NCBI RefSeq assembly: GCF_001507535.1
Contig: NZ_LQBN01000003.1
Location: forward strand, 62,001 to 126,000
DNA length: 64,000 nt
Direction: 5' to 3'
Source: Thiomicrospira sp. WB1
GTDB taxonomy: Bacteria; Pseudomonadota; Gammaproteobacteria; Thiomicrospirales; Thiomicrospiraceae
How positions within the stretch are numbered: the first letter of the stretch is position 1; the number at the start of each line of letters is the position of its first letter. Position numbers and translations under genes: made by a program. Shown piece after piece: positions 25,609 to 56,869 of the stretch. The notes beneath the pieces were generated by a model. It did no database searches and was not told the origin of the DNA. It saw only the letters and a list, made by a program, of their open reading frames with translations.

Positions 25609-26394
25609 TCAGGGATTGGGCGAACGGCGTTTAAACTGATAGACGGGGCGTAATTCGCCTTCAAACCAGTACTTAGCCGTCAGGTTTTGGTCTGTTTGCT
25701 CAAAGTGGCGCCCTAAAGAATGCCCAGAGGCCGGACGGCTCAGCGTCAGGTCCGTTTGCGACCAGTTCAGTGTTTCTTTCAAGTGCATGGGGTAATACCC
25801 ATTAAAAAACTTACGCATATAAGGCCCCCGCTCTAATACCCAACCCTCGGACGCTTTACGCAGGGTCCGACTCTGGCCTTCAATGCAGATTTCAGCGTCT
25901 TTCTCAATCCCGCTTAATGTTACCTGGGCGGTGCCCGCTTTCGCCGATGCGATCCCCGACTCGCGCGTAATCGTTAGCCCGCGAGTGGTCTGAGAGTTGT
26001 AGACAATGTCAATTTTTGCCATGGCATCCAATTGGTGATGGCACTGTTCAAAGGTGACCCAGCCATGCGCCAATGAATCAGGCGTTAGGATCAGGTGGTT
26101 GACCAGATAGTAATCATTTTGAGGCACGTCTTCAGGCGATAGCCATTTGACTTGTTTGTTTTGAAAGCGGGTGGGAAAATCGTCCTCGCCGGGTTGCGGG
26201 GGCGTATTTTTTTGCATGGCCGCGATGTCCGGTCGCGGCCCATCTCCCTCCAGCCAGGCGCGTTCCGCTGGCGTCAGATCGGACAGATCATCGCTGAATT
26301 CAATTTCGGCCTGAACCGATCCGTATGCAAGCAGCGGTGCAGTGAGCAGAATGGACAAAATACGTGAGCGCAAAGGTGTGGATGGCAATGGCAA
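25609..26394 (-). CDS. secreted protein of unknown function
   Basis: A 261-residue protein with a signal peptide (ILSILLTAPLLAYGSVQA) and no family I recognise. The mature part is rich in charged residues and beta-strand-like stretches, with two cysteines (FEQCHHQ, AEICIEG) and conserved-looking YMRKFFNGYYPMHL. A TTG start at 26394 is used because AAGGGG lies about 6 bases before it; no ATG gives a full signal. It is convergent with the adaptor gene, with 5 bases between the stops, and lies just downstream of tRNA-Arg on the same strand. Confidence 0.55.
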   Translation of the reverse strand: MPLPSTPLRSRILSILLTAPLLAYGSVQAEIEFSDDLSDLTPAERAWLEGDGPRPDIAAMQKNTPPQPGEDDFPTRFQNKQVKWLSPEDVPQNDYYLVNHLILTPDSLAHGWVTFEQCHHQLDAMAKIDIVYNSQTTRGLTITRESGIASAKAGTAQVTLSGIEKDAEICIEGQSRTLRKASEGWVLERGPYMRKFFNGYYPMHLKETLNWSQTDLTLSRPASGHSLGRHFEQTDQNLTAKYWFEGELRPVYQFKRRSPNP

Positions 26395-31621: not shown

Positions 31622-31993
31622 GGCAAGAAGGTCGGGCAATCGCGGGCCGGGGTGACCCGGTTCGAGGAAAGTCCGGGCACTGCAGAGCAGAATGCCAGCT
31701 AACGGCTGGGCGGCGTGAGCCGACGGAAAGTGCCACAGAAAACGTACCGCCGGGCAACCGGTAAGGGTGAAAAGGTGCGGTAAGAGCGCACCGCGCAGCG
31801 GGTAACCGTCTGCGGCAGGGTAAACCCCATTCAGTGCAAGACCAAATAGGAAAACAGGCTCGTTTCGCACGGGCACGGTGTGGCTCGCACCGGGTTTTCG
31901 GGTAGGTCGCTTGAGGCTGGCAGTGATGCCATGCCCAGATGAATGGTTGCCGCCTGGTGACAGGACAGAACCCGGCTTATAGACCTTCTTGCC
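31622..31993 (+). ncRNA. rnpB: RNase P RNA (class A)
   Basis: The catalytic RNA of RNase P. The ends pair perfectly (GGCAAGAAGGTC with GACCTTCTTGCC, helix P1). Internal landmarks are GAGGAAAGTCCGGGC, CACAGAAAACG, AAGGGTGAAAAGGTGCGGTAAGAGCGCACC (two conserved blocks read together), GCAAGACCAAATAGG and ACAGAACCCGGCTTATAGA. The length of about 372 bases is normal. The overlapping open frame on the opposite strand is a shadow. A palindrome copy follows 20 bases after the 3' end. Confidence 0.97.
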
Positions 31994-32013
31994 TTTCATT
32001 TTATTGGTTTTTG

Positions 32014-32025
32014 ACCAGGCCTGGT
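32014..32025. repeat. ACCAGGCCTGGT palindrome, copy 7
   Basis: Exact copy shortly after rnpB, with dyad TTTGACC/GGTCAAA over 32010-32029. It may mark the 3' boundary of the rnpB transcript, but it has an A-tract instead of a T-tract downstream. Confidence 0.95.
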
Positions 32026-32029
32026 CAAA

Positions 32030-32308
32030 CAGCCACCCCTCGCTTTGCCGGTTTTATCAATATTTAGTGCTTTTTTGATTTAATAGGTCTATATGTTGTG
32101 GTGCTGAAGTGTCTGCATCACGCCCTGAAACCCTCTTTTCTTTCAGTTTCTTAATATAAATAGTTAAAATTAACTATTCATACCTATTTGTAACTCTATG
32201 AATAATCAGGGTTTAATTTTGACCGGTTTTCGTGAGTTGCTGTTTGGGCGTCGACGCTAAGTTGTTGGTCTGCAAAAAGAAATTCTTAAATCTATGTGTT
32301 TTGATTGC
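32030..32308. other. AT-rich gene-free stretch upstream of the dcw cluster
   Basis: About 280 bases clearly richer in A and T than the flanks, with no credible gene. It holds a 20-bp inverted repeat (AATAGTTAA, AA, TTAACTATT; 32159-32178) and several T- and A-tracts. It may contain UP-element, nucleoid-protein or regulator sites for the mraZ promoter. Confidence 0.5.
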
Positions 32309-52803: not shown

Positions 52804-53064
52804 AGGCGTCTAGTCACTTTTACGAAATATTAACCGGCCTCACACCGGGATAAAAAACTTCAATCCGTTGACAAGACTATTTTCTATAGAATGCCCATCG
52901 TAGAAGCAAGCTTTACCAATGGCTAGACAGCCTTTCGGTACGGTTTTTGCTGCCACTGTCACAAAAATATCAATACCCATTTCAACGCTATGATGACTTC
53001 GAATAAGATGACGAAGCGCAAGGCGGTGAAAATGAGTGGCCAAATCGAGAGGAAGGATCGTCTC

Positions 53065-55527
53065 ATGGGAATCAAAACCCGCATGTTCATCGGTGTCTTC
53101 GGGGCACTGTTTTTTCTGTTGACCTCAAATCTGATTGCGCAGTATGTGTTTGACCAAAGCAGTCAGACCATCAACCGCATTGTTAATGAGACCCAGGTGA
53201 AAGTGGCTCTGCTCAATGAGCTGAAAAACCTGACCGACGAGCGGGCCGTTCTTTCGCGGGATTTGGTGATTACCGAGGATGAGGCTTTCCTGGAACGGGC
53301 CGATGCACGCCTCAAGGAAACCGCCAAAGAAATCGGAGCGGTATTCGAGCAGTTGGAAGCCATGCCCTTGGACAAAAAAGAGCAGGCATACTTTGATGCC
53401 ATTCGGGAAAACGTGGTGTCGGCCAACCGGGCGTTTGGCAGTTTTAAAATGATGGCGGACGAACAGTTTTATGAAGACGCCGTGGACATTTTGATTGGTG
53501 AATTCGGTCAGAAGTATCAGGCGTTTACCGACATCGTGCAAAACTTTCAGGCTTATGAGCAGGCTCAGAATGCCAAAGCGGCTCAGGAGCTGAGAGAACA
53601 GGAAAAATTTGCCGTGACCACCATGTGGTCGGTGCTGCTGGTGAGTGTGGTTTTGTTCTCCGTGGCCGGGTTCTTTGTGGCACGCAGCTTTATGAAGCCG
53701 ATTGAAGCCATGCGTGAAACCATGCTCAAAATCCGCGAGACGGGTGAGCTTAATCATCGTGTCGCGGTGCTGTCCAAAGATGAATTGGGTGAAACTTCCA
53801 AGGCCATCAACGGTCTTCTGTCCACCATTCACGATGCCATCGATGACGTCAATGGCGTCATGAAAGACGTGTCAAACGGGGAGTTTGGCAACACCATCGA
53901 AAAAGAATACCAGGGTGATTTCTCCACGTTGAAGCAAGGGGTCAATGAATCGGTGGAGCAGGTGCACTCCATGATTCAGATCCTGACCGAAACCGCCTAC
54001 AACCTGCGAAACGGCCAGTTCAAGATGGAAAACAACGACGCTGTGAATTTCAGTGGGGAATACGAGCGCGTGATGACCGATCTGTCGGTGGCAATGGAGC
54101 GGCTTGATAACAGTGTTCAGGACATTGCCAAAACCTTGAAAGCCCTGTCACGTGGGGACTTCTCACGCCGCGTGACTGCTGAGGCGCGAGGCGAGTTGGT
54201 TACCTTGAAGGAAGCCATCAATGAAACGCTGGAAGGGTTGGAGTCATTCGTAGAAGACGTGGCCACGGTACAGACGCAGATCAGTGAAGGCGATCTGACC
54301 CACCGGGTACAAGGCAACTACCACGGCAAAATGGCGGTGTTGAAAGACTCTCTGAATTCGTCAACTCTGAATATGTCTGACATGATCGGTAAAGTCGGGG
54401 CCGTGACGCGTACGGTGGCGGATGAGGCGCGTAGCATTGCCGATGGCAGTGAGTCCATCTCCGAGCGCATTCAGCAACAGACGCACGCGTTGGAAGAAAC
54501 CGCCCAACAAATGGCGTCGATGACGGACACGGTGAAAAAGAACGCTGAAAGTGCCAATCACGCCAATGAGGTGACGCAAACCGCGCAAAACAAACTGGCC
54601 GAAGGTGGTCAAGTCATGCAAAAAGCACTGGCGTCCATGGATCGCATGAGCGAAGCCAGTCAGAAGATCAATGACATCATCACCTTGATTGACGGCATTG
54701 CGTTCCAGACGAACCTGCTGGCGCTGAATGCGGCGGTGGAAGCGGCACGCGCCGGTGAACACGGCCGTGGATTTGCGGTGGTCGCCGGGGAGGTCCGCAG
54801 TCTGGCCGGTAAATCTTCCGATGCGGCGGCCGACATCAAAAAACTGATTGAAAACTCCGTGGCGATCAGCGACGAGTCGGGGCGTTATGTGCGCGAAACC
54901 AGCGACGTGCTTCAGGAAATTCATGCATCAATGGACGAAATTTCCGAGCGGGTGTCAACCATTGCCACCGCCACCAATGAGCAGTCAGTGGGCATTGACT
55001 CGGTGAGTCAGTCGGTCTCGGAAATGGAAAATTCCACCCAGCAGAACGCCGGTCTGGTGGAAGAAGCGGCCGCGGGCAGTCAGGATCTGTTGCATCAGGC
55101 CTCCGACCTGTTGGAGCTGGTCAGCGAGTTTCAGATTGATCAGGCCACACAGACGCGTACGCTCAAAGCCAAATCCTCTCAGCAGGCGCAGGAATTCGAC
55201 AAAATGGTCCAGGCCCACCTGGCGTGGAAAGCCAAAATCCGGGCATTCGTGGACGGCATGGACATTGGGGTGACGTATGAAGCCGCGACCGATCCGACCG
55301 CCTGTGTGCTGGGCAAATGGTATTACGGCGAAGGTCAGAAATACGCGGACATGCCCACCATGCAAAAGCTGGGCGAAGAACATGCTCAGATGCATGCGGC
55401 GATTAAAAAAGTCATGGATGCCAAGGCCATTGACGACACGGAAACCGTGGATGACGGTCTGGCCCAAGTTGATCGCCAGTCGGATGAAGTGGTGGCGCTC
55501 TTGTATCAGCTGATGGACGAGGTCTAA
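53065..55527 (+). CDS. chemoreceptor with C-terminal CZB zinc-binding domain
   Basis: An 820-residue receptor. The first membrane segment lies at about residues 7-27, a helical periplasmic sensor at about 30-190, the second membrane segment at about 195-218, then several HAMP units (about 220-470). The signalling domain has the hairpin tip [20 protein letters not shown]. The C-terminus is a CZB domain: [14 protein letters not shown] (His), [11 protein letters not shown] (Cys) and [10 protein letters not shown] (two His), the His3-Cys zinc site of the family, linked elsewhere to sensing zinc or oxidants. The ATG at 53065 has GAGGAAGGA upstream. The znu genes lie 0.5 kb downstream. Confidence 0.94.
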
Positions 55528-55550
55528 GGGTCGACCGCCCATTATGAAGC

Positions 55551-55678
55551 CGAAACGCCTGTTTTTTGACCAGGCCTGGTCAAAAACATTGTCCCCCTGA
55601 GCGCAGCCGAAGGGTCTTTAAAGACGGAGCTGGACGCCAAAGCACCCTCCGGCTGCGGTCGGGATGACAGGCGTTTCG
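55551..55678. repeat. 128-bp nested inverted-repeat structure
   Basis: Outer arms CGAAACGCCTGT (55551-55562) and ACAGGCGTTTCG (55667-55678) are perfect complements. Inside them lie a 24-bp perfect dyad around palindrome copy 12 (55563-55586) and a second arm pair (CGCAGCCG, AGGGT; ACCCT, CGGCTGCG; 55602-55657). This folds as a three-way junction. It resembles a small mobile repeat or a structured RNA; no protein is encoded. Confidence 0.7.
55569..55580. repeat. ACCAGGCCTGGT palindrome, copy 12
   Basis: Exact copy 41 bases after the CZB receptor. Symmetry reaches 24 bp (55563-55586): T-tract, GACCAGG, CCTGGTC, A-tract. It forms one arm of the nested structure at 55551-55678. Confidence 0.95.
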
Positions 55679-55800
55679 TGTTTTCGCCAGGGTTTTTGAC
55701 TGGCTTCAACTGAATGCTTCAGCAAGCCCCGACGTGTTCATTTTTTACTTGTGTAAAAAACGAACCAAAAAAGCACACCCGGCACACGCTTTCTGTGCAT

Positions 55801-55879
55801 TCTAAGCCCTGCCACAGGGCCCTTGCGAACTCGCTTCGCTCAAACAGGCGCAAGGGACATTTCCTGTGGCAGGTCTAAG
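55801..55879. repeat. REP-like inverted repeat with 6-bp direct flanks
   Basis: CCTGCCACAGG (55808-55818) pairs with CCTGTGGCAGG (55863-55873); inside, CCCTTGCG (55820-55827) pairs with CGCAAGGG (55849-55856). TCTAAG flanks both sides (55801-55806 and 55874-55879). The rest of the 55528-56062 gap holds short inverted repeats and no credible gene. Confidence 0.65.
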
Positions 55880-55973
55880 AAGCACGACGAAATCTTTGTG
55901 ATGGGAACTTGCCCAGGCATTGCTTGTGGCACGATTGGTTATGAACCGTTTTGTTTGTTCTGGTTGAAAAACA

Positions 55974-55985
55974 ACCAGGCCTGGT
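55974..55985. repeat. ACCAGGCCTGGT palindrome, copy 13
   Basis: Exact copy 405 bases after copy 12 in the same noncoding stretch; preceded by AACA and followed by CAAAAA, so it is not symmetric beyond the core. It is downstream of the znuB stop on the minus strand. Confidence 0.95.
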
Positions 55986-56062
55986 CAAAAAGGGGTTTCA
56001 GTTTGATCTGTTGGACGGGTTCTTATTAACCTGAAGAACAACAGATCAATATTCGAGCCGGA

Positions 56063-56869
56063 TCAATGGGCGCGTTTGAGCAGGCTTGTCAGGAACAAAA
56101 CTGTGGCCGCGGCCACAATGGCCGGGCCGGTGGGTAAATCCCATAAAAAAGAGGCCAGCAGGCCGCCCAGCACACTAATCACACCCAGGAGCATGGCGCC
56201 AGTCAGCATGGTTTCCGGCGAGCGGGCAAAACGCCGGGCACTGGCGGCCGGCATAATCAGTAATGAAGTGATGAGCAGAACCCCGACCACTTTGATGGCG
56301 AGGCCGATCAGAATGGCCAGTAATAGCAGATAGTGGCGTTGCAAAGCGCGCGTATCAATCCCTTCAATCTGGGCCAAATCGCTGTTGAGTGTCAGGTTCA
56401 GCATGTCAGACCAGTGACGCCAGACAAACCGCCCGATCCACAGCCCCAGAATTAGAATCCCGACCAGCTCGCCCGTTTGCAGACTGAGAATGTCGCCAAA
56501 CAGGTAGGCCATGAGGTCGATTTGAGTCGGTTGCTGCAGACTGATCAAAATCAGCGCCAGCGCCAGTGAAGCGTGAGCGAAAATCCCCAGAAGTGTGTCA
56601 CTGGGTAATCGGGTATGTCGGCTGAGCCAATCAATGCTCAGGGCGGCCAGAATCGACACGGCAATCACTGCCAGTGTCAGGTCCAGCTGCCACCACAACC
56701 CCAGGCTGACACCGAGCAGCGCGGAATGAGCCAGTGCGGCACCAAAGTAGGATTGTTTTTGCCAGACCACAAACACGCCCAGTGGTGCCGCGATCACAGC
56801 CAGCAAAAGACCGCCCGCGAAGGCATACAACAAAAAGTCAGGTAAGGTTAAAAGACTGTCCAGGCTCAT
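56063..56869 (-). CDS. znuB: zinc ABC transporter permease ZnuB
   Basis: A 268-residue ABC-3 family permease with about eight membrane segments. FVVWQKQSYFGAALAHSALLG, ASLALALILIS and KVVGVLLITSLLIMPAASA are conserved. It forms the membrane channel of the zinc importer. The ATG overlaps the znuC stop by four bases. The genes lie on the minus strand, divergent from znuA. Confidence 0.94.
   Translation of the reverse strand: MSLDSLLTLPDFLLYAFAGGLLLAVIAAPLGVFVVWQKQSYFGAALAHSALLGVSLGLWWQLDLTLAVIAVSILAALSIDWLSRHTRLPSDTLLGIFAHASLALALILISLQQPTQIDLMAYLFGDILSLQTGELVGILILGLWIGRFVWRHWSDMLNLTLNSDLAQIEGIDTRALQRHYLLLLAILIGLAIKVVGVLLITSLLIMPAASARRFARSPETMLTGAMLLGVISVLGGLLASFLWDLPTGPAIVAAATVLFLTSLLKRAH

Follow-up and report, generated by a model that had tools for sequence, protein, structure and literature searches.

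A convergent intergenic gap of Thiomicrospira sp. WB1 combines dispersed repeats with a genome-wide palindrome that is conserved in position between species

The sequence analyzed here is a 64,000-nucleotide stretch of the Thiomicrospira sp. WB1 genome (positions 62001-126000 of contig C3; 2.28 Mb in total), hereafter called the window. Within it, a 535-bp noncoding gap separates two converging genes that encode an MCP chemoreceptor with HAMP, MCP-signal, and CZB domains and an ABC-3/ZnuB-like permease (Table 1). The window aligns over almost its entire length with positions 540-618 kb of Hydrogenovibrio halophilus DSM 15072 (NZ_KB913033.1), a sister genome of the same genus, and all position-by-position comparisons were made between these two species only. 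The orthologous H. halophilus gap (L080) is flanked by CZB-MCP and ZnuB genes that are 93% and 84% identical to those of the window; the order of its parts matches that of the window, and it contains a single exact palindrome as well as a deletion within the segment that we call element B.

Table 1. Features of the convergent gap and its flanking genes (window coordinates).
Feature	Position	Strand	Basis or remark
Upstream gene, MCP chemoreceptor (HAMP, MCP-signal, CZB)	52990-55527	+	Converges on the gap
Convergent intergenic gap, repeat mosaic	55528-56062	.	Gene order and mosaic also in H. halophilus
Left 12-bp outer arm, outside the repeated block	55551-55562	+	Missing in the second full-length copy (aligned from 55569 onward)
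Palindrome copy 1, TTTTTGACCAGGCCTGGTCAAAAA (core CCAGGCCTGG)	55563-55586	.	Core 12-mer identical in orthologous H. halophilus gap
Element A, ~80-bp imperfect hairpin with TGTC...GACA ends, dispersed repeat	55590-55669	+	Aligned rows
Right 12-bp outer arm, overlaps end of A and start of C	55667-55678	+	Perfect complement of left arm
Module C, with GCCAG/CTGGC hairpin 55686-55704	55670-55734	+	Diverged copy in L049, 80% over 100 nt
Element B, dispersed intergenic repeat, hairpin core around GCGAACTCGCTTCGCTC	55735-55907 plus flanks	+	BLAST, aligned rows
Module D, prolongs some B copies at their 3' end as far as the palindrome	55908-55973	+	Mapped among B copies
Palindrome copy 2, ACCAGGCCTGGTCAAAAA	55974-55991	.	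One mismatch (ACCAAGCCTGGT) in H. halophilus
3' flank of ZnuB-like gene, 11-bp inverted repeat 56003-56013/56039-56049	55992-56062	-	88% identical in H. halophilus
Downstream gene, ABC-3/ZnuB-like permease	56063-56869	-	Converges on the gap

All of the symmetries listed in the original prediction, which described nested inverted repeats in a noncoding stretch, are present. The 12-bp outer arms and the 24-bp palindrome are perfect, the palindrome recurs as an 18-nt direct repeat (55569-55586 and 55974-55991), a second hairpin is formed by a 26-nt arm pair (55590-55615/55644-55669, 81% complementary), and the arms of the GCCAG/CTGGC hairpin were located by eye at 55686-55690 and 55700-55704. When positions 55545-55685 were folded alone, the predicted three-way junction was obtained (-73.4 kcal/mol, z = -6.87, none of 200 shuffles as stable), and the full 535 nt folded as single-stranded DNA yielded z = -9.27 (none of 100 shuffles as stable). 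The outer arms are weaker evidence than the palindrome and taken alone could have arisen by chance, because they represent one of five distinct perfect 12-bp inverted repeats (loop of up to 120) in the 64 kb, a number reached by merging eight overlapping matches and set against our own rough chance estimate of ~0.4 per window. In the orthologous H. halophilus gap, inspection by eye revealed one mismatched pair and one G-U pair within these arms.

A BLAST search with the gap in the window's genome returned 65 matches (E ≤ 0.001), comprising short ones around the palindrome and longer ones over 55731-55992 (five of ~160-260 bp). With the palindromes removed, the gap matched 13 of 62 family genomes, strongly in the window's own genome and in H. 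halophilus and over short stretches in the other 11. The order in the window is palindrome, A, C, B, D, palindrome, and the mosaic appears in this order again in a different H. halophilus gap (L079). The stretch is not a single copy without symmetry in relatives, as the search for other copies demonstrated by locating copies in H. halophilus. The left arm is missing from the second full-length copy (L079), in which the match begins with the palindrome, so the three-way junction of 128 bp does not recur as a unit; the junction that had been proposed is predicted when this DNA is folded by itself, but it is not conserved as such. The suggestion of a small mobile repeat that carries the palindrome was partly borne out, in that the palindrome-A-C-B-D block recurs at 91% identity over window positions 55569-55990 and that a palindrome lies 9-10 nt upstream of A in 8 of 20 aligned rows (seven exact and one with a single mismatch), but most palindrome sites are found outside such blocks.

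The 20 rows of element A consisted of one from the window and 19 from the H. halophilus stretches examined. All except the shortened row L082, which was dropped as truncated so that the fold of A was built from 19 rows, end in TGTC...GACA as terminal inverted repeats. The A 27-mer occurs once in the window's genome, with one mismatch to the consensus, and close relatives of it were detected in 6 of 299 genomes of the phylum, the window's genome included. One H. halophilus locus (L084) contains five near-full A rows in tandem along with a partial sixth, and another (L087) provides an occupied/empty site, with 199 bp in H. halophilus versus 8 bp in the window's genome between flanks that are 89% and 86% identical. 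The extra 199 bp are longer than A itself and include A as well as outer TGTCA/TGACA half-units. No clean target-site duplication of A could be defined at this one occupied/empty pair, and the difference may reflect a loss in the window's genome rather than a gain in H. halophilus. In the palindrome-rich Hydrogenovibrio genome G009 (C1:2475500-2479000; L088), four partial A matches lie ~175-200 bp apart as an array of A-like half-units.

These properties are those expected if A were a small dispersed element of the non-autonomous type (comparable to a MITE or a REP) that has been gained, lost, and tandemly multiplied, with transposition as the probable means of its movement. MITEs and other small non-autonomous intergenic repeats resemble A in its terminal inverted repeats, its length of ~80 bp, and its occupied/empty site; they likewise resemble B as an intergenic family of ~175-260 bp. 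They differ from A and B in that here no parent transposon was identified and no target-site duplication was defined. Short dispersed imperfect palindromes, located in gaps and partly in tandem, are also typical of REP/BIME elements with a RAYT, yet we consider it quite improbable that a RAYT transposase moves A as a REP element. REPs have a GTAG-type head, unlike the TGTC/GACA ends of A, and PF01797 (Y1_Tnp) had no matches in the window's genome or in H. halophilus, the two A carriers, although it is present in 4 of the 11 genomes of the genus. A resident RAYT was accordingly rejected as the agent; a past or foreign RAYT is a possible source of A's movement.

Element B forms an intergenic family of ~175-260 bp, of which 17 rows were aligned. 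The fold was derived from 16 of them after omission of the L080 row with its internal deletion, and rows with a ~35-bp insert were cropped to start after the insert. In several B copies (L079, L080, L081, and L048), the first stem contains this additional segment of ~35 bp, in which there is a CTCGGC/GCCGAG hairpin. The exact 22-base B core pattern was found in 2 of 299 phylum genomes, including that of the window. B occupies matching gaps in both species, namely the window gap and L080, three gaps shared by L046 and L079, the pair L047/L081, and the pair L048/L083 (flanks 84% and 78% identical), and for this reason B looks older and more static than A. Together with C and D, B would thus be an intergenic repeat of greater age, most of whose copies are fixed in corresponding gaps of the two species. 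In a neighborhood of GGDEF/EAL, CopD-like, and TonB-receptor genes (L046, C1:340000-358000 of the window's genome, and L079 in H. halophilus), several gaps contain B copies, often as inverted pairs, and A copies were found only on the H. halophilus side.

A structured RNA after the CZB receptor had been offered as the other explanation of the symmetries, with 55551-55678 folding into the three-way junction within the 3' part of the receptor mRNA. The hairpins do fold well beyond shuffles, as those of a structured RNA would (z = -6.87 for the junction), and the pieces also are found in the orthologous H. halophilus gap. We nevertheless regard this reading as highly improbable, because the second full-length copy has no left arm, Rfam had no match in the gap at gathering score (across the entire 64-kb window it recognized RNase P and a tRNA and nothing else), no promoter-like site was found in 55400-56200, and base pairs are almost never preserved by changes on both sides. 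Of 19 pairs in A none shows such two-sided changes, and of 30 pairs in B one does; the covariance check that had been proposed gave no support for an RNA, in a test that is weakened by the low divergence of the copies. The best sub-threshold Rfam match, MIR5387 (27.6 bits versus a gathering score of 69), was dismissed as it involved generic stem pairs and the opposite strand matched as well. One- and two-base indels among the B copies argue against coding. Beyond the stability of the hairpins, nothing speaks for an RNA.

The palindrome also was considered as an intrinsic terminator and rejected in that role. Both strands read T-run, stem, A-run, so that no U-tract follows the stem, and the palindrome is present in tandem, divergent, and convergent gaps as well as inside genes. 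Terminator-like sites in 55400-56200 numbered three against 1.3 expected; two of these fall in the ZnuB-like gene or elsewhere beyond the gap, and the third (plus strand, 55660-55678) overlaps the end of A. The 11-bp inverted repeat next to the ZnuB-like gene, which lies outside these three sites, is a possible minus-strand terminator.

The palindrome itself extends far beyond the gap. The window contains 14 exact copies of the 12-mer ACCAGGCCTGGT, whereas 100 shuffles averaged 0.01, and the genome contains 400, with none of the reversed pattern; for the 10-mer core CCAGGCCTGG the genome count is 461 (~200 per Mb) versus 2 for the reversed control, and H. halophilus has roughly 600 core sites. 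This core is a perfect palindrome made of two abutting CCWGG sites, the Dcm/EcoRII motif. It is the most enriched palindromic 10-mer in sampled stretches of four genomes (the window's own, H. halophilus, G002, and G013), whereas 200 kb of G010 contain no copy. On each side of the core, the window's genome, H. halophilus, and G013 display T, any base, A or G, and then four to five mainly A/T positions, and G002 has the A/T run with looser positions +1 to +3. Variants with a single mismatch most often carry it at the outermost core position, as seen in each of four genomes. With crude ORF calls, 7 of 14, 25 of 58, 22 of 51, and 15 of 30 sites in four genomes fall in non-coding DNA versus 1.1, 5.4, 5.9, and 3.7 expected, a 3.7- to 6.4-fold excess, and by the same calls the remaining 7, 33, 29, and 15 sites are inside genes. 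Four coding copies in the window, each in a different gene and checked by eye against the ORF list, encode D-Q-A-W (37593, 42186, and 45295) or H-Q-A-W (30335).

If A or B had distributed this sequence, as the original prediction envisaged, the sites would be expected beside them, but only 2 of the 14 window copies are. Instead, 10 of 13 alignable sites in the window are identical at the same position in H. halophilus, compared to 0.91 expected (sd 0.9) from flank-matched 12-mers; the count covers 13 of the 14 palindromes, with the unaligned site 32014 left out. The three non-identical sites are 13271, 20591, and 55974, the last being copy 2 in the gap. The H. halophilus coding site at 25962 differs from the window by two substitutions in an ungapped alignment. 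From the conserved positions and this ungapped difference we infer that the sites are kept in place and change by substitution rather than being spread by A or B. The RNase P RNA gene (31624-31995) is followed after 12 nt by a palindrome copy with one mismatch in the 24-mer (32008-32031), at which point the alignment with H. halophilus breaks.

The spacing of the sites was compared with random placement in three genomes. Among the 100 sites listed for contig C1 of the window's genome, the mean spacing is 4.7 kb with a CV of 0.60 versus 0.98 for random placement (0 of 20,000 simulations as low), a value that leaves out one palindrome-free gap of 83 kb. Among 66 listed sites in each of the other two genomes, the CV was 0.69 in H. 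halophilus (0.1% of simulations as low) and 0.87 in G008 (18% of simulations as low, not significantly even). Spacings below 1 kb among the listed sites numbered 4 versus 19 expected in C1, 4 versus 13 in H. halophilus, and 0 versus 8.7 in G008. Two of the four close C1 pairs (350281/350589 and 353666/353870) are in B clusters, and the gap's own pair, 405 bp apart, is the third case of a close pair tied to B. We propose that the gap has two copies at this distance because local copying of A/B blocks carried one along. The palindrome-free C1 stretch spans 209038-292354; 40 kb sampled in it (L209 and L210) contained one copy and had a GC content of 0.465 versus 0.556 in the window. This palindrome-poor stretch is possibly an acquired island.

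Across 60 family genomes, the core was present in 106-856 copies in 27 and in 0-37 copies in the other 33, with 0-2 for the reversed control. Palindrome-rich members occur in four of seven genera, and the window's genus is divided into seven rich and four poor genomes (0-1 copies) of 11. A link to Dcm or other C5 methylation, suggested by the two abutting CCWGG sites, was rejected since the presence of PF00145 does not track palindrome abundance: this C5 methyltransferase domain was detected in 8 of the 27 rich and 13 of the 33 poor genomes (Fisher p = 0.59, no association), and three palindrome-rich genomes (the window's own, that of H. halophilus, and G013) had none.

The palindrome is most likely a duplex binding site for a putative symmetric protein, maintained by selection; the protein may serve DNA uptake, chromosome organization, or methylation-linked repair, and several more specific identities were weighed. 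An origin like that which Elhai proposed for the cyanobacterial HIP1 (GCGATCGC), in which a DNA methyltransferase and repair system makes and keeps a highly iterated palindrome, would account for a palindromic sequence in hundreds of copies, in genes and gaps, that is present or absent by lineage, and single-mismatch variants mainly at the outermost core position also are reported for HIP1 in PMC4390886. The core of two abutting CCWGG sites would suit a methyltransferase; however, the lack of C5 methyltransferases in three rich genomes and of any association in the family argue to the contrary. The sequence here further differs from HIP1 in having a 10-bp core with A/T-rich flanks, an excess in non-coding DNA, and a density of ~200 core sites per Mb versus 500-2500 per Mb given for high-frequency cyanobacterial oligomers in PMC4390886, and we judge this origin unlikely. 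Similarly doubtful is a self-recognition mark for natural transformation, like the DUS/USS of Neisseriaceae and Pasteurellaceae. PMC1939737 and PMC2397512 describe DUS/USS as overrepresented, in excess in non-coding DNA, and significantly evenly spaced, properties that hold here insofar as spacing among the sites listed is significantly even in two of three genomes (C1 and H. halophilus) and spacings under 1 kb are few in all three; in addition, the lower GC content of the palindrome-poor C1 stretch is what acquired DNA might have. DUS/USS are not palindromic, whereas the core here is a perfect palindrome with ~200 sites per Mb, and the spacing in G008 is not significantly even.

A chromosome mark for a nucleoid-organizing or segregation protein would fit the two-fold symmetry with A/T-rich flanks, the rarity of close pairs, and the conservation in genes and gaps. 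We rate it as rather unlikely all the same, given that no candidate protein emerged, that spacing is not significantly even in G008, and that a site with a core function would not be expected to be missing so often inside a single genus (4 of 11 genomes). A broader formulation, which we advance tentatively, is that CCAGGCCTGG with A/T-rich flanks serves as a family-wide selected chromosomal address for a putative dimeric protein, in self-DNA recognition or chromosome organization, switched on and off across Hydrogenovibrio and related genera and operating without a C5 methyltransferase. With equal caution, the gap could be counted among the rare places where dispersed repeats copied such a palindrome site.

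Taken together, the 535-bp gap is a patchwork of three independent kinds of repeated DNA and not a single structured RNA. Our best explanation, to which we assign a probability of roughly 0.7, is a DNA-level mosaic of A, B (with C and D), and a separate selected palindrome. Three unrelated repeats would have accumulated between converging genes, where an insertion costs little, and A and B would have gathered passively around the palindrome. The palindrome would be separate from both as a genome-wide CCAGGCCTGG site with A/T-rich flanks that arises and is lost by point substitution, is kept by selection, and is bound, most simply, as duplex DNA by a putative two-fold-symmetric DNA-binding protein. 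No candidate for this protein was found.

The mosaic belongs to a known kind, the intergenic repeat clusters, and the palindrome looks like a new variant among iterated palindromes. In literature searches that had most subscription journals outside their range, we found no report on ACCAGGCCTGGT and, among the titles listed, none on CCAGGCCTGG in these bacteria. Searches for palindromic repeats of Hydrogenovibrio yielded no paper on the palindrome (the accessible part of PMC6501319 uses "palindrom" just in the expansion of CRISPR), and there was nothing on DNA uptake sequences in Thiomicrospira or, among the titles listed, on the A or B sequences as repeats.

By itself the repeat mosaic is ordinary. 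The palindrome is not, as it is found at the same places in diverged species and is present in hundreds of copies or nearly absent within one family of sulfur-oxidizing bacteria, with C5 methylation, to which one might have linked the HIPs of cyanobacteria, apparently lacking. The question of why iterated palindromes exist becomes testable in culturable species that bear the palindrome, compared to congeners that do not.
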